A stretch of DNA of 64,000 nt, taken from the NCBI GenBank assembly GCA_903867985.1, contig CAIPTO010000082.1, positions 1 through 64,000 of the forward strand. Reading direction: 5' to 3'. This DNA comes from an uncultured Elusimicrobia bacterium. Lineage in GTDB: Bacteria > Elusimicrobiota > Elusimicrobia > Elusimicrobiales > UBA9959. The position numbers and the translations under genes are program-made. Positions 19,914 through 60,113 of the stretch are shown piece after piece. The notes below the pieces were generated by a model that made no database searches, had not been told where the DNA came from, and saw only the letters and a program-made list of their open reading frames with translations. How positions within the stretch are numbered: position 1 is the stretch's first letter; each line of letters opens with the position of its first letter.

Positions 19914-20774
19914 ATGACAATCGTTCACCGCCGTCGCGTATTTAGCCCTTTATTCCTCTGCGTCTCCGTGTTTTTATCCCTGCTGTTGGGCGGCTGCGTA
20001 CCGCTGCCGGAGGGAGCTCTGGCTGGCATCTCCAAACCCGACATCCAGGCGACCGAACCGCCATATACCGGGCTCGCGCCGGGCTACAAGACCTATGAAA
20101 GCGCCCACTTCATGGTAAAAGCTTATACCAGTGAAACGGCTGTGTCCTACTCCGTTATCTGCGAGGAGGGGTACAACCGGGTGATGGGCGACGTGGGGCT
20201 CTACTCCTTCGCTCTGGCCAAGCCCTATAATATTGTCGTCTATAAAGACTCTGCTGAGTATATAAAAAAGACCGGTCAGCCAAGTTGGTCGGGCGGGATG
20301 TCGCAGGGCAACGCCATATTGGTTTACGAGTCCCAGGGGGCCGGCGCCATACTCGCGCACGAAATGACTCATCTCATTTTTAACGAGTTCATGGGGCTGG
20401 CCAACAGCGTGGATTTTAAATGGATCAACGAAGGCCTGGCTGTATACGAGGAGACCAGAGCCTCCGTTTCCTCCAAAGCCGCTTATAGCCAGCGGGTGAC
20501 TTCGCTGGTGGAGCCCAACCCCGTTCCTTTTTCGCAGATGATCAACCTGGCGCCGCAGGGTGAGCAGACCGCTGTTGTTGAGCGCTGGTACGCCCAGGTG
20601 GGCTCGGTGGTTTCTTTTATGATCAACGAAGGCGGTACGCTGGGTTTTTCCATATTTATTACTAAACTCAAATCCGGAGCCTCCGCTGACGCGGCTGTAG
20701 CTGAGGCGTTCCCGGGACTGTGGAAAAATATCGGCGATGTAGAGAAAGCGTGGCTGTTAAATATAAAACGCTAA
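19914..20774 (+). CDS. Peptidase MA-like metallopeptidase (lipoprotein)
   Basis: LLGGCV lipobox; ILAHEMTHLIFNEF ... KWINEGLAVYEE. Confidence 0.82.
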   Translation: MTIVHRRRVFSPLFLCVSVFLSLLLGGCVPLPEGALAGISKPDIQATEPPYTGLAPGYKTYESAHFMVKAYTSETAVSYSVICEEGYNRVMGDVGLYSFALAKPYNIVVYKDSAEYIKKTGQPSWSGGMSQGNAILVYESQGAGAILAHEMTHLIFNEFMGLANSVDFKWINEGLAVYEETRASVSSKAAYSQRVTSLVEPNPVPFSQMINLAPQGEQTAVVERWYAQVGSVVSFMINEGGTLGFSIFITKLKSGASADAAVAEAFPGLWKNIGDVEKAWLLNIKR

Positions 20775-20913
20775 TTGCCATAAGCCATAGGCTTTAGGCT
20801 ATAAGCTTTAAGCCATACGCGGAAAATAGGAACTCTCTAAAGTATACGGCGTACGACAAATAGCAATCGGCAGCCGGTATTCTGCCTATGGCGTATGGCT
20901 TAAAGCTTATAGC
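20774..20913. repeat. Solo word-repeat hairpin element (GCCATAAGCC/GCTTTAAG family)
   Basis: 23-bp perfect inverted repeat 20798..20820 / 20891..20913; left end ATTGCCATAAGCCATAGGCTTTAGGC identical to 56758..56783. Confidence 0.85.
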
Positions 20914-20921
20914 AGTTTATT

Positions 20922-23129
20922 ATGCCCGACAAATTTGTTTTACCGGAAGAAAATTTAAAAAAAGCGGTAATTCCACTTGAGGGCGTCCATTGTGCCAGCT
21001 GTGTTGAGCGCGTCGAGAGCGGCCTCGCCCGCATGCCCGGCATCCGCAGGGTTTCCGTCCATCTTCCTTCAAGAACCGCTTTTCTAACCTATGACCCGGC
21101 ACTCGCCACCACCGAAGCGATAACGCTGCGGATCGCCGAATTGGGCTACAAGGCGCTTGCTGTTTCCCAGTCGCCGGCTAAGGCCGAAAATATCGCCGGG
21201 GCGGAACTTGAGCGTGAGAAGCGCTATTTCCTGAAAAAATTTCTCGTCTCGCTCGCGGTTACGGGTTTCCTGCTGATGGGCCGCGTTTTTGATTCTTCGC
21301 CGTATACCATGATGATCGCCGCCGCCTTTGCCTGGTGGTGGTGCGGCTCCCATTTCCACGCCGGCCTTATCCGTTCGCTTAAGGCGCGCGCCGCGGATAT
21401 GAATACGCTGGTCTCTTTAAGCACCAGCGTCACTTTTTTCTACGGTGTATTCATTACTGTTTTTCCGGCCGCTATGTCCATGTCATACCACGCGCAGTGG
21501 CACGAGGTGGCCATGCTTATCACCTTTATAAATCTCGGGCGTTGGCTTGAAGCCCGCTCAAAGAGCGCGGCGGCGGCAGCGGTCTCCAATCTGTTTAAAA
21601 TCGCGCCCAAGTTCGCGCGCCGTGTCAGGGACGGCAGAGAGGAACTCATACGCGCTGAAGAAATACTGCCCGGCGACGTGATCTCGCTCCGGCCCGGGGA
21701 ACAAGTGCCGGTGGACGGGGCGGTTCTGAGCGGCTTTTCAGCCATAGACGAAGCCCTTCTGACCGGGGAGGCGCTGCCGCAGGAGAAAAGTCCCGGTTCC
21801 AGGATTTACGCGGGGACGATAAATACTACCGGCGCGCTGGAATTCTCAGCCACCGGAGTAGGGGAAGATATGGTCCTGATGAAGATCATCAAGGCCGTGG
21901 AAGAAAGTCAGGCGGCTAAAACCTCCACCCAGCGGCTGGTTGACCGCATCGCGGCCTGGTTCGTGCCTTTTGTCCTGCTTACGGCTTTTACGGCGCTGGG
22001 ATTCTGGCTTTATTATACCGACGTTTCCCGCTCGGTAAATGTGTTCGCGGCTGTGCTGGCGGTGGCCTGTCCCTGCGCTCTGGGGCTGGCCGTCCCCATG
22101 GCCTTGGCGGTCGGTTTCGGCCGGGCAGCCGGCCTCGGAATCCTAATAAATAACGGCGACGTACCTGAGCGCATTTCCAAAGTTGACGTTGTCATCTTCG
22201 ATAAGACCGGCACCATAACCGAAGGCCGTCTTAAAGTATCAAAGCTGCGGCCCTGGAAGATAAGCGAAACCGAATTTCTGGCGCTGCTTTTAAGCGCCGA
22301 ATCCAAATCAGAGCATCCCTTCGCGGCTGCGGTAAGACTTTACGCAGAAGGCCGCGTGCCTTCTTATGAGGCCCCGTCCGCTATAGAGGTGGTCCCCGGT
22401 AAGGGCGTAGCCGTTCAACTTAAGGACCGTGAGATCAAGGCGGGAAGTCAGAAGTGGTTCGTTGAGGAGGGGATAGCGCTGCCCGCGGATTCATTGGCGG
22501 AACTCAGGAATGATGACGGCTCTCTTCTCCTGCTGGCCGAAAACGGGCGGTTTGTCGGATATGTCGTGCTTGCCGATTCTATGCGCCCCGAAGCCGCCGG
22601 GCTCATCAAAGAGCTTGCTTCAATGGGCATAAAGCCTGTAATCGCTTCCGGAGACCGCGCGGCCGCGGTTTCAGCGGCCGCGGTAACGCTGGGCATTACT
22701 GAATTTTACTCCGAGGTTTTTCCAGAGGAGAAACGGCAGATCGTCCTGCGTCATAAAGCGCTTGGGCTGAAGGTCGCGGTCGTGGGTGACGGCTTTAACG
22801 ACGCGGCGGCTCTCTCAGAAGCCGATATCGGAATAGCCCTACGGTCCGGCACAGATATCGCGGTCAAAGCAAGCGATATCACGCTTATGCATAACGGCAT
22901 TGCCGGCGTAGCCCAGGCTGTGAAACTCGCCAGGATAATCCGCAGGGTTATTATCGAGAACCTGCTCTGGGCCTTTGCTTATAATATCATCCTCATCCCG
23001 CTCGCGGCAGGCGCCTTTTACCCGGCGTTCGGTCTGACCATCCCGCCGTATTTCGCCGGGGGCGCTATGGCCTTAAGTTCTGTTTCGGTGGTGATGAATT
23101 CGTTACGGCTTAAAAAGATGAAAATTTAA
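20922..23129 (+). CDS. copA: Heavy-metal (Cu-type) translocating P-type ATPase
   Basis: HMA motif GVHCASCVERVESGL; CPCALGLAVPMA; DKTGTITEG; GDGFNDAAAL. Confidence 0.88.
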   Translation: MPDKFVLPEENLKKAVIPLEGVHCASCVERVESGLARMPGIRRVSVHLPSRTAFLTYDPALATTEAITLRIAELGYKALAVSQSPAKAENIAGAELEREKRYFLKKFLVSLAVTGFLLMGRVFDSSPYTMMIAAAFAWWWCGSHFHAGLIRSLKARAADMNTLVSLSTSVTFFYGVFITVFPAAMSMSYHAQWHEVAMLITFINLGRWLEARSKSAAAAAVSNLFKIAPKFARRVRDGREELIRAEEILPGDVISLRPGEQVPVDGAVLSGFSAIDEALLTGEALPQEKSPGSRIYAGTINTTGALEFSATGVGEDMVLMKIIKAVEESQAAKTSTQRLVDRIAAWFVPFVLLTAFTALGFWLYYTDVSRSVNVFAAVLAVACPCALGLAVPMALAVGFGRAAGLGILINNGDVPERISKVDVVIFDKTGTITEGRLKVSKLRPWKISETEFLALLLSAESKSEHPFAAAVRLYAEGRVPSYEAPSAIEVVPGKGVAVQLKDREIKAGSQKWFVEEGIALPADSLAELRNDDGSLLLLAENGRFVGYVVLADSMRPEAAGLIKELASMGIKPVIASGDRAAAVSAAAVTLGITEFYSEVFPEEKRQIVLRHKALGLKVAVVGDGFNDAAALSEADIGIALRSGTDIAVKASDITLMHNGIAGVAQAVKLARIIRRVIIENLLWAFAYNIILIPLAAGAFYPAFGLTIPPYFAGGAMALSSVSVVMNSLRLKKMKI

Positions 23130-43460: not shown

Positions 43461-43463
43461 ATC

Positions 43464-43505
43464 TGGCTTACGGCTTATAGCATACGGCTTACGGCGTATG
43501 GCAAT
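43464..43505. repeat. Word repeat (GGCTTACGGC family, one-armed)
   Basis: GGCTTACGGCTTATAGCATACGGCTTACGGCGTATGGC. Confidence 0.7.
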
Positions 43506-43980: not shown

Positions 43981-44096
43981 GTAGTGGTTAGTGAATAGTG
44001 AATAGTGAATAGTGAATAGTGAATAGTGAATAGTGACTTACCACTTACCACTTACCACTTACCACTTATCACTTATCACTTATCACTTATCACTTA
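43981..44096. repeat. Two-armed word-repeat hairpin (AGTGAAT)n / (CACTTACC)n(CACTTATC)n
   Basis: Direct reading of tandem AGTGAAT units followed by CACTTACC and CACTTATC units. Confidence 0.92.
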
Positions 44097-45279: not shown

Positions 45280-46254
45280 ATGAAACAAAATATTCGCGGT
45301 AAAGCTTTAATTTCAGTTTTATTTTCATCGGTCATGCTTACGGCCTACGGCTTATGGCCCGCGGCCTTGGGCGCTCAACCCCTGACTGAGGAGGCAACTT
45401 CGTATAACGAAGTTCCCCAGGAAATCGTGATCAAGTCGGAAAGCGAAGACAAGATCCGGACCACCAAGCCGCCGCTGAAGATCAAGACGGATGACTTGGA
45501 GAGCATCAGGGAATCCCTCGAGCCGGACAAAGATCTTTTTCTGTACGGCGAGTTCGCGAGCGTTTCCCAGGATTATCCGGAAAAGTTGTTTTCGACCAGA
45601 GTGATACAGCCCTGGCGGGCCGGGTTCAGCGATAAAACCGTTATAGCTTTTTATCCGCTGCGCAAGTTTTCAGAGGCTTTTAACAGGAATTCATTTGACG
45701 GTAATTCCAAAGAGATCCAATGGACGCTTTCGGTCACCGACGAGGAGGGCAAGATCTTTCACAAATACGCCGGGACAGGCGTGCCGCCGGAATCTATATT
45801 CTGGACCGGCGAGAACGATCAGCGGGAATGGCTTAAAGCCGGGCATAATTACGCTCCGGTTTACGTCTTCGTGGACGAGATGGGCGCGCTTAAGACCATT
45901 GTCGGAGATATTATAAAGTTTACCGCGATAGTATTCCAGAAAGACAGCAACCTTAACATAAGTCTGGATTCAGTCTCCGTATTCGGGCCTACCAAATCCA
46001 TGAAGACAGTGGATAAGGTTCTGGGTGAAGCGCTGCTTACCGCCACATGCGACCTTATTAAGCGGCGCTATTATAATGTTCCGGTCAAGGTCAACGTTTA
46101 CGCCCAGACCAAGGACCTGGCCGAACAACAGGCCGACCAAGTAAGCAATTTTCTTAAAAAAGAGCTTATGACCGGAGCAAATCTCATAACCTATGAAGGT
46201 TTTGACGAAAGTTTCGCCCAGCAGCGGATCGACGTGATTTTGATGAATAAGTGA
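45280..46254 (+). CDS. Secreted hypothetical protein with OmpA-like C-terminal region
   Basis: Signal peptide; C-terminal VNVYAQTKDLAEQQADQVSNFLKKELMTGANLITYEGFDESFAQQRIDVIL. Confidence 0.6.
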   Translation: MKQNIRGKALISVLFSSVMLTAYGLWPAALGAQPLTEEATSYNEVPQEIVIKSESEDKIRTTKPPLKIKTDDLESIRESLEPDKDLFLYGEFASVSQDYPEKLFSTRVIQPWRAGFSDKTVIAFYPLRKFSEAFNRNSFDGNSKEIQWTLSVTDEEGKIFHKYAGTGVPPESIFWTGENDQREWLKAGHNYAPVYVFVDEMGALKTIVGDIIKFTAIVFQKDSNLNISLDSVSVFGPTKSMKTVDKVLGEALLTATCDLIKRRYYNVPVKVNVYAQTKDLAEQQADQVSNFLKKELMTGANLITYEGFDESFAQQRIDVILMNK

Positions 46255-46263
46255 TATCAGGGG

Positions 46264-46341
46264 AAGTGATAAGTGGTAAGTGATAAGTGGTAAGTGATAA
46301 GTAATAAGACTTACAACTTAATCCTTACAACTTACTCCTGA
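46264..46341. repeat. Two-armed word repeat (AAGTGATAAGTGGT / ACTTACAACTTA)
   Basis: AAGTGATAAGTGGTAAGTGATAAGTGGTAAGTGATAAGTAATAAG then ACTTACAACTTAATCCTTACAACTTACTCC. Confidence 0.85.
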
Positions 46342-55620: not shown

Positions 55621-56781
55621 ATGAAAAATAAAAACCTTCCATCCTCATCTTTTTGGCGTGACAAAAAGGTATTCCTCACCGGACATACCGGCTTTAAAGG
55701 CGCCTGGCTCTCCATCTGGCTGGACGCTATGGGAGCAGAAGTCACAGGTTACGCTCTTAAGCCTCCCACAAAACCGAGCCTTTTCGAACTGTGCCGCGTT
55801 GACCGCTCCGTTAAGTCACTTATAGCCGATATCCGTGACGCAGGGCGCCTGCAAAAAGCTGTCCTGGCGGCAAGGCCGGAAATAGTAATTCACATGGCCG
55901 CCCAGCCCATAGTCCGGCAATCCTATAAAGATCCGCGCGAAACTTATGAAACCAATGTCATGGGTACGGTAAACCTGCTTGAGGCCGTCCGTAATTGCGG
56001 TACTGTGCGGGCCGTAGTCAATGTCACCACCGATAAATGCTACGAAAACAAGGAGCATCTCCGCGGGTACAAAGAGGATGAACCCATGGGCGGTTATGAT
56101 CCGTACTCAAGCAGCAAGGCCTGTTCAGAACTCGTCACTGCGGCCTATCGCAACTCCTTCTTTAATCCCAAATCTTATCGTGCCTCCTGCCGATCCTCCA
56201 GTCCTCTAATCCTCCAGTCCTCTAATCCTCCAGTCCTCCAATGCGCCCACCATGTGGCCCTGGCTTCAGCCCGGGCGGGAAATGTTATCGGTGGCGGGGA
56301 TTGGGCGGCCGACCGCCTTATTCCGGACATAATACGCGCGGCTTTAAAGGGGGACAAAGTCCTTATCCGCAATCCCAGGGCAATACGCCCCTGGCAGCAT
56401 GTTTTGGAACCGCTCAGCGGCTATCTGGTTCTGGCTGAAAAACTTTATAAGCGGGGCCCCGGTTACGCCCAGGCCTGGAATTTCGGTCCCGACGCGGGCG
56501 ACGCCAAAGACGTGGAATGGATAGCGGAACGGATGTTCTCCGCCTGGCCCGAAGCCCCCGGCTACGCTCTGGATAAAGGCCTTCACCCCCATGAAGCGCA
56601 TTACCTGAAACTTGACTCCGCCAAAGCCCGCCGCGAACTCGGCTGGGCCCCGCGCTGGCGCATAGGCCAGGCCATAGATAAAATAATAGAATGGACCCTG
56701 GCGTATCAAAACAGTCTGGATATGCGGGATGTGACCCTTGGACAAATAAAGGAATATATTGCCATAAGCCATAGGCTTTAG
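55621..56781 (+). CDS. rfbG: CDP-glucose 4,6-dehydratase, with in-frame palindromic-repeat insertion and repeat-derived C-terminus
   Basis: FLTGHTGFKGAWLSIWLDAMGAEVTGYAL, VNVTTDKCYEN, DPYSSSKACSELV, AGNVIGGGDWA, HPHEAHYLKLD. Confidence 0.95.
   Translation: MKNKNLPSSSFWRDKKVFLTGHTGFKGAWLSIWLDAMGAEVTGYALKPPTKPSLFELCRVDRSVKSLIADIRDAGRLQKAVLAARPEIVIHMAAQPIVRQSYKDPRETYETNVMGTVNLLEAVRNCGTVRAVVNVTTDKCYENKEHLRGYKEDEPMGGYDPYSSSKACSELVTAAYRNSFFNPKSYRASCRSSSPLILQSSNPPVLQCAHHVALASARAGNVIGGGDWAADRLIPDIIRAALKGDKVLIRNPRAIRPWQHVLEPLSGYLVLAEKLYKRGPGYAQAWNFGPDAGDAKDVEWIAERMFSAWPEAPGYALDKGLHPHEAHYLKLDSAKARRELGWAPRWRIGQAIDKIIEWTLAYQNSLDMRDVTLGQIKEYIAISHRL
56193..56240. repeat. Three 16-bp word units inside rfbG
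   Basis: ATCCTCCAGTCCTCTA x2 then ATCCTCCAGTCCTCCA. Confidence 0.92.
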
Positions 56782-57246
56782 GCCGTAAGCTATAAGCCGT
56801 AGGCAGATTGGAAGAGGGAGCGAAATGGAAAAGTGGAAGAGTCTTGAGGTTTGGCAACTTGCTAATGATCTGGCGCATAAGGTTTATTTGGCAACAAAAG
56901 ATTTTCCTAAAGAAGAGCTATATGGGCTGACATCCCAATTACGCCGGGCTGCTTTGTCAGTTCCTACGAATATAGTGGAGGGACATTCCAGGAGTGGGGA
57001 TAAAGAACTTGCACGATTCTTAAATATTTCTTTGGGATCTCTCGGCGAAACAAAGTATCTTCTTTTCTTTTCAAATCAGTTGCAGTATTTGCCGGAGAAG
57101 TCTTTTCTTGAGTTGGATAAGTTAACCCAAGACGTTGGCGTAAAACTTTGGGCGTTCTATAAAGTTGTAAAAGAATAGTTCTGTTCTGCGTATGGCTAAA
57201 TCTTATGGCCTAAAGCCTAAAGCCTAAAGCCTAAAGCTTATGGCAA
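56758..57246. mobile_element. Candidate S23-encoding word-repeat element: inverted arms flanking a four-helix-bundle ORF
   Basis: Left arm 56758..56806 and right arm 57186..57246 are imperfect inverted repeats with 10-nt perfect termini TTGCCATAAG/CTTATGGCAA. Confidence 0.6.
56825..57178 (+). CDS. Four-helix bundle protein (S23 / 23S rRNA intervening-sequence protein family, Avd-related fold)
   Basis: KWKSLEVWQLANDLAHKVYLATKDFPKEELYGLTSQLRRAALSVPTNIVEGHSRSGDKELARFLNISLGSLGETKYLL. Confidence 0.93.
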   Translation: MEKWKSLEVWQLANDLAHKVYLATKDFPKEELYGLTSQLRRAALSVPTNIVEGHSRSGDKELARFLNISLGSLGETKYLLFFSNQLQYLPEKSFLELDKLTQDVGVKLWAFYKVVKE

Positions 57247-57268
57247 ACCTAATCGATAAGGCTCTACT

Positions 57269-58598: not shown

Positions 58599-60113
58599 AT
58601 GGGCCTCAAAACTGCTAAAACCGAAAAAAAACTGCGCAAAGAGATACTTCGTAAGGTTTCGGAGTATCATGGCCTTTTCCATAAGAAAAAGGACTTTGAG
58701 CCAGGCAAGTCTTTTGTCGCTTACGGCGGAAGGGTATATGACGGGAAGGAATTATGCAATCTTGTCGGTTCCGCCCTTGATTTCTGGCTTACTTCCGGCC
58801 CATATGTTGACGCTTTCGAGAAAAAGTTCGGAGAATTCCTTGGCGTCAGGCATGTTTCCCTCGTAAATTCCGGCTCATCGGCCAATCTTCTGGCGTTCAT
58901 GGCCCTCACCTCCCCGAAACTTGGCGAAAGGCGCATAAAGCCCGGTGATGAGGTTATAACCGTCGCCGCCGGCTTTCCTACCACGGTTACTCCTATAATC
59001 CAGTACGGCGCGGTCCCCGTCTTCGTTGATGTCGAAATTCCGTCCTATAATATCGATTGTTCTCTGCTGGAAAAAGCTCTTTCAAAAAAGACCAAAGCCG
59101 TAATGGTCGCCCACACTTTGGGCAACCCCTTTGACCTGAAAAAGGTCCGCGCTTTTTGCGACAAGCATCGCCTCTGGCTAATTGAGGATAACTGCGACGC
59201 TCTGGGCAGTAGGTACAGAAGAATGGAGGACTGGAAGACTGGAGGACTAGCCAAACCCGCGGATCTTTGCCGCTGCCAATCCTCTAATCCTACAACCCTC
59301 CAAAAATCTGCTCTCTTGCCAATCCTCCAATCCTCTAATCCTCTAATCTTCCAATACACCGGAACTTTCGGCGATATCGGTACTTCCAGCTTCTATCCGC
59401 CGCATCATATGACCATGGGCGAGGGGGGAGCGGTCTATACTGATAACCCCCAGCTTAAAAGGCTTGTGGATTCTTTCCGTGACTGGGGCCGCGACTGCTG
59501 GTGCCCGTCCGGAAAAGACAACACTTGCGGTAAGAGATTCACCCGGCAGTTCGGCGAGCTTCCTTTGGGCTACGACCACAAGTATGTTTACTCTCATTTC
59601 GGTTATAATCTCAAGGCCACCGAGATGCAGGCTGCCGTCGGCCTGGCCCAGCTTGAAAAGCTTCCCAAATTCATTGAAGCCAGAAAAAAGAACTGGCAAT
59701 ACCTGCGCAAAGCCCTTAATTCTTTTTCGGATAAGCTTATCCTGCCCGAACCCGCCGATAATTCCGACCCCAGCTGGTTCGGCTTCCTGCTGACGGTCAG
59801 GGGGAACGCCGGCTTCACCCGCGAAGAGCTGGTCAGCCATCTTGAGGCCAATAAAATACAAACCCGCGTGCTGTTCGCAGGCAACCTTATAAAGCACCCC
59901 TGCTTCGACGAAATGCGCCGCTCCGGCAAAGGCTTCCGCGTCGTAGCCGGCGCTTCTCGCCAGTCCTCCAATCCTCCAATCCTCCTGGCCTCATTGCCCG
60001 TTACCGACCAGATCATGCGCGACACTTTCTGGATAGGCGTCTATCCCGGCATGACCGTAGAAATGCTGAAGTATGTCTCGGATACTTTTAAATCTTTTTT
60101 TAACCGTTCGTAA
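58599..60113 (+). CDS. rfbH: CDP-6-deoxy-D-xylo-4-hexulose 3-dehydrase (E1), with two in-frame repeat insertions
   Basis: [95 protein letters not shown]. Confidence 0.95.
59221..59355. repeat. Two-armed word-repeat insertion within rfbH (135 bp)
   Basis: Left GGAGGACTGGAAGACTGGAGGACTAG; right AATCCTCTAATCCT...AATCCTCCAATCCTCTAATCCTCTAATCTTCCAAT. Confidence 0.92.
59961..59988. repeat. Short word-repeat insertion near 3' end of rfbH
   Basis: CAGTCCTCCAATCCTCCAATCCTCCTGG encoding QSSNPPIL. Confidence 0.85.

Follow-up and report, generated by a model that had tools for sequence, protein, structure and literature searches.

The hairpin at 20.8 kb in the 64,000-nucleotide stretch analysed here (the window) is probably a short, S23-less member of a dispersed family of elements that resemble intervening sequences (IVSs), are probably mobile themselves and carry S23 in their coding form; we put the probability of this reading at about two in three. 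Members of the family would end in two inverted arrays of ~4-6 degenerate 7-nt words, which here belong to a dialect that we call A, i.e. (GCYWTAR)n with GCAGAAN capping inwards, and the long form (e.g. 56758-57247) would hold an S23/IVP gene between arms of the same kind.

The solo element and its neighbours are laid out as follows:

19914 to 20774, + strand: gene for a Peptidase_MA-like protein, upstream of the hairpin; its ortholog served for the empty-site test
20777 to 20825, + strand: 5' arm, six GCYWTAR heptads (GCCATAA GCCATAG GCTTTAG GCTATAA GCTTTAA GCCATAC), then the inner cap GCGGAAA
20798 to 20820, + strand: left half of the 23-bp perfect inverted repeat, with its partner at 20891-20913
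20826 to 20878, no strand: loop, with no ORF and no detectable S23 remnant
20879 to 20913, - strand: 3' arm, GCTATAA GCTTTAA GCCATAC GCCATAG and the inner cap GCAGAAT
20922 to 23129, + strand: gene for a P-type heavy-metal ATPase, downstream of the hairpin

A preliminary description had taken this hairpin for a MITE-like derivative of an S23 element 36 kb away, with which it shares a 26-nt end. The 26-mer, ATTGCCATAAGCCATAGGCTTTAGGC, is indeed identical at 20774-20799 and 56758-56783 (both +; none in dinucleotide shuffles), the arms 20798-20820 and 20891-20913 form a perfect inverted repeat of 23 bp around a spacer of 70 nt, and 20774-20913 contains no ORF of at least 60 aa, i.e. the element has complementary ends only and lacks the S23 ORF. 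However, the shared end lies outside the perfect arms, which it overlaps by only 2 nt, and forms the outer portion of the six-unit heptad array in the 5' arm. Nor is it unique to the two sites, since its core 23-mer recurs exactly at a third locus. Between loci, 10 identical three-heptad pairs were observed and 8.3 were expected from the word vocabulary. Because the vocabulary alone predicts such identities, the shared 26-mer is no proof of descent, and we rejected direct descent on this ground; what stands of the proposed derivation is that ORF-less derivatives of S23 elements are demonstrated in two cases, described below.

The S23 element consists of the following parts:

56758 to 57247, + strand: S23 element, long form of the solo family, inverted heptad arms around an S23 (PF05635) gene
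56761 to 56809, + strand: 5' arm, six heptads and GCAGATT
56825 to 57178, + strand: S23 / 23S rRNA-intervening-sequence protein (four helix bundle), 117 aa, PF05635 E 5.7e-35
57183 to 57244, - strand: 3' arm, GCCATAA, GCTTTAG four times, GCCATAA, degenerate words and the inner GCCATAC-GCAGAAC

A copy of ATTGCCATAAGCCATAGGCTTTAGGC with three mismatches at 57222-57247 (-) is the 3' arm of this element, and its arms are like those of the solo hairpin in both heptad dialect and GCAGAAN-type inner cap. Against the bAvd profile the S23 protein scores 26.2 bits, below the cut-off of 40, so it is not classed as a DGR accessory protein; the sole reverse transcriptase found in the genome is on a contig other than that of the window.

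We read the genome (2.62 Mb, 147 contigs) in stretches around matches to the word pattern and in sampled stretches. GCYWTAR has 139 matches within 3 mismatches, compared with 1 for the reversed control, and the matches fall into 57 array clusters: 23 facing pairs, 33 single arms and 1 other. Most arms have 4-5 units; A arrays peak at 4 words plus cap, and GCAGAAN or a similar inner cap terminates many A-dialect arms. A-dialect elements are placed almost only between co-directional genes (42 of 49 intergenic clusters, with 5 between divergent and 2 between convergent genes) or within ORFs (8 further clusters). A terminator function was rejected, convergent genes flanking only 2 of the 49. Arms of the same element pair no better than foreign arms do (4778 of 5000 permutations were at least as good), by which arm-to-arm complementarity was rejected as the conserved trait; the 20.8-kb copy with its perfect 23-bp stem is a well-matched exception. 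This result suggests that the word is what is conserved, and it favours recognition by a protein over selection of an RNA stem. The genome has two S23 genes, each framed by heptad arrays that face each other; the dialect differs between the two.

Further arrays were seen in the window and elsewhere in the genome. An in-frame octad array, ATCCTCCAGTCCTCTA, lies at 56193-56242 within the GDP-mannose dehydratase gene (55621-56781); at the same position the ortholog in G028, a relative of the same genus, has a heptad array of TCATCCC and that in G192 an unrelated linker; a single loop of the protein is thus the site of arrays in different dialects. Facing octad arrays (GGAGGACTGG.. at 59218-59355, CCAATCCT at 59960-59985) are apparently translated in frame in a DegT-like aminotransferase gene (58599-60113). 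Within 3 kb, further heptad arrays or hairpins mark consecutive gene boundaries (43461-43502, 43982-44096, 45331-45372 and 46264-46339), in the dialects TAGTGAA/ACTTACC, AAGTGAT and GCCGTAA. At five loci (L040, L045, L052, L068 and L069) small perfect palindromes, GGGCGCNGCGCCC and GCGGCTGTCCCAGCCGC, are nested between A-dialect heptad words, a pattern that would fit insertion of another small element into the arrays. On contig C23 of the same genome (L036, 1918-2292), a 5'-truncated S23 relic beside 8-mer arrays follows immediately on the stop codon of a gene.

Orthologous junctions differ between relatives in the manner of insertions, at both the solo and the S23 site. The genes for Peptidase_MA and the P-type ATPase form a conserved pair among relatives. 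Its junction spans ~148 nt with the hairpin in the window; it is empty in G164 (TAA-TT-ATG), in G028 (TGA, 11 nt, ATG) and in further relatives, and in G158, from another genus, it holds a hairpin of another heptad dialect (GRGGCGA / TARCCYC). The S23 element lies at the junction of GMD and an MBL-fold gene, which is empty in G192 (same genus as the window), has about two words in G028 and in G081 and G164 contains a different S23 (38% identity) between 8-mer arms. In G045 the same junction carries an ORF-less A-dialect hairpin whose loop retains the S23 C-terminus: it reads LVWDIGVKLWFFYEVVK, matching LTQDVGVKLWAFYKVVK of the S23 C-terminus at 12 of 17 positions (E 9e-6). A second such fossil, at L413 in G157 (arms GGGTAGA / TCTACCC), is a truncated, internally deleted S23 of which the C-terminal ~40 residues are kept. 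These two cases demonstrate that internal deletion of an S23 element can leave an ORF-less hairpin, and for the family as a whole this derivation is likely. No target-site duplication was identified, the flanks of the empty orthologous junctions being too diverged for scoring, and no transposase or excision product was identified for the elements.

The association of S23 genes with facing arms holds across bacteria. Significant inverted arms (p<=0.02, from 100 dinucleotide shuffles per locus) surround 36 of 53 high-scoring S23 genes of family genomes, compared with 1 of 50 window genes. Facing arms are present at 35 of 40 S23 loci on viral contigs and 10 of 15 on plasmids, all chosen by protein similarity only and the former partly redundant, compared with 15 of 303 other genes taken from genomes that bear S23; with the more stringent criterion of an IR score of at least 36, the counts are 29/53 for the family, 38/55 for viral contigs and plasmids together and 4/303 for the controls. 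At least one significant array feature was found at 54 of these 55 viral-contig and plasmid loci, where 41 of the 46 significant 5' arrays have period 7; at S23 genes this period is dominant and period 8 is next. The 5' arms are purine-rich (64%) and the 3' arms pyrimidine-rich. S23 genes of other phyla have facing arms in 23 of 30 cases, a figure biased by the choice of genomes by array pattern. Low-scoring PF05635 matches have inverted arms in 2 of 12 cases, and several of these genes, which share contigs with reverse transcriptases, resemble DGR accessory genes. Period-7 arrays number 0-25 per 100 kb in 11 genomes (S23-bearing or of the same genus) and 0 in 400 kb sampled from ten S23-less genomes, a contrast in density for which GC and genus are confounders; G028 has many arrays, yet no high-scoring S23.

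The orientation of S23 differs between settings: it is mostly antisense to both neighbours in viral contigs (L348-L395; 24 vs 3) and co-directional in bacterial genomes (41 vs 0 in the family, 21 vs 1 in other phyla), where the genomes are draft MAGs and the strands of flanking genes were taken from ORF length, with annotation used for plasmids only. Among loci L342, L343, L397 and L340, S23 elements were seen within CRISPR-Cas operons (cas6/S23/cas4 and cas10/S23/cmr3) and between ribonucleotide reductase genes of cyanobacterial plasmids. A search for S23 among annotated phages gave no match.

An S23 lineage takes its dialect along to different sites. The proportion of S23 pairs that share a dialect rises from at most 2% below 50% identity to 28% at 60-70% and 84% at 70-80%. 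When only pairs at least 70% identical with unrelated outer flanks were considered, the dialect was common to 33 of 40, compared with a mean of 1.0 and a maximum of 6 in 2000 permutations, and in 9 of 11 S23 clusters all or most pairs have it in common. For example, the window S23 and that at L278 of G045 are 75% identical, lie at different sites and both have A-dialect arms. Most genomes with an S23 of the matching lineage have the A dialect, or a second one, T, in abundance, and counts of both are highest in such genomes. Exceptions exist: T is plentiful in G164 and A in G081, although neither has an obvious intact S23 to match, and in G107 an S23 of the T lineage is accompanied by zero T-pattern matches.

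Several observations count against the reading of the solo hairpin as an S23-less family member, among them the lack of an identified transposase, TSD or excision product and the confounded density contrast; in addition, a search of the 70-nt loop of the 20.8-kb copy detected no S23 remnant, and S23-less copies far outnumber S23 (~50 array clusters in the stretches read vs 2 S23 genes in the genome). This excess of ORF-less arrays would be expected if S23 were instead a cargo or homing gene that enters pre-existing heptad hairpins, themselves primary and otherwise made. Such entry could also explain why two unrelated S23 genes, one with 7-mer and one with 8-mer arms, occupy the same GMD/MBL junction in different genera, and why that junction has only two words in G028. 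We nevertheless consider it unlikely, because S23 lineage and dialect co-move to non-homologous sites (the 33 of 40 pairs above), the S23 fossils within hairpins point to gene loss from complete elements, and S23-free family genomes are without arrays in the sampled stretches.

A much less probable origin is polymerase slippage with template switching in intergenic gaps, by which the arrays would be simple-sequence repeats and the S23 link secondary. The solo element does consist of tandem 7-nt units, unit words are degenerate, some arrays are very long (150 nt at L420), and slippage has been proposed for the heptanucleotide repeats over-represented in many bacteria (PMC4692102, PMC4679880). 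Arm length is peaked at 4-5 units, however, with A arrays at 4 words plus cap and no broad tail; periods 4, 5, 10 and 11 are absent from the sampled stretches; and neither the tracking of S23 phylogeny by dialect nor the facing of arrays around S23 genes, rarely around others, would follow from slippage. It is similarly improbable that the elements are RNA processing signals, transcribed in operon mRNA and cut by RNase III like the 23S IVS, and for this reason tolerated or regulating the stability of flanking-gene transcripts. The architecture is that of the Coxiella IVS (terminal stem, S23 ORF, RNase III; PMC4990558), the sites lie between co-directional genes and the solo copy folds strongly (-57.2 kcal/mol, z = -5.75); but single arms make up over half of the A clusters, the arms within an element match no better than those of different elements, S23 elements of viral contigs are mostly antisense to their neighbours, and the 23S genes examined are without any element. 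The inserts of the latter, at L338 (G153) and L339 (G109), are group I introns (Rfam matches in L338; some with homing-endonuclease-like ORFs), by which a location of arrays or S23 in relatives' 23S rRNA was rejected; no 23S gene was found in the assembly that holds the window.

The family resembles several known systems in part. Short IVSs without an ORF exist. As in the 428-nt 23S IVS of Coxiella burnetii, with its S23p ORF, terminal stem and RNase III (PMC4990558), the 56.8-kb element has an S23-family ORF between complementary ends, and the long form is ~430-490 nt; unlike IVSs, both copies in the window lie between protein genes rather than in rRNA, and the elements end in word arrays, are dispersed in tens of copies and have poorly matched arms. 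In Rfam searches of the window only tRNAs were matched, the hairpin not being among them. Bacterial MITEs are likewise short, ORF-less and intergenic, with inverted ends, many copies and an ORF-bearing parent form, and the solo hairpin shows these features, sharing its ends with the ORF-bearing S23 element (dialect, inner cap, S23-fossil hairpins). The parent here, however, is without a transposase, its ends are tandem word arrays and not a fixed terminal repeat, and no TSD was found; autonomy via S23 is only putative, and S23 is not known to be a recombinase. REP/REPIN repeats with Y1 (RAYT) are also dispersed intergenic hairpins with one cognate protein whose lineage matches the repeat, but here the arrays have period 7, the presence or absence of Y1 is unlinked to them and the cognate candidate is S23. 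Known heptanucleotide repeats, e.g. GGGAATC in Xanthomonas (70 inverted, i.e. facing, pairs in Xcc) and GGGGAYT in Nostoc (PMC4692102) or TAACTGA in Beggiatoaceae (PMC4679880), share the intergenic seven-letter tandem units and in Xcc often the facing pairs, but are described as G-quadruplex or regulatory repeats with no S23 association reported there. Xcc encodes an S23 protein (XCC0516, PDB 2GSC). Finally, the DGR accessory Avd/bAvd (PF22296) has a homologous four-helix-bundle fold and weak PF05635 matches, but such low-scoring matches are mostly without arrays, and several are on contigs that also have RTs. We found no paper connecting S23 with heptad repeats; most subscription literature was outside the search, and the novelty is provisional.

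If the solo hairpin belongs to an S23-linked family, the following mechanism would be consistent with the results. The elements would move or be copied into gaps between operon genes. S23 would recognise its own dialect's words, probably in the form of a single strand or a hairpin transcript, and some host or partner enzyme would do the cutting and copying. ORF-less copies would be born by internal deletion and would persist or spread in trans, and the trait kept would be the word and not the base-by-base pairing of the arms. A reverse transcriptase was rejected as a necessary partner, being absent from several S23- or array-rich genomes, as was the Y1/RAYT transposase, which is present in 49 of 59 genomes, whether or not they have arrays. 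The known structures of S23 homologs (2GSC and 2RLD) have five chains each; with arm lengths peaking near five words, it is conceivable that there is one word per S23 subunit. A broader proposal, which we hold tentatively and think slightly more apt to fail than to succeed, is that S23 is the recognition component of bacteria-wide mobile or self-maintaining elements with ends of about five words (possibly one per pentamer subunit, cf. TRAP wrapping RNA), and that heptanucleotide repeats are largely their footprint.

Many proteins are annotated as S23, or 'four helix bundle protein', with no function attached, and heptanucleotide repeats are an old puzzle of bacterial genomes. A tight, dialect-specific link between them provides either one with a partner that can be tested, and points to elements of a new kind that end in word arrays. 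S23 genes inside operons, e.g. cas6/S23/cas4, are accounted for as well, and the facing heptad rows that frame most of the S23 genes examined may help to explain the abundance of 7-letter repeats in bacteria.
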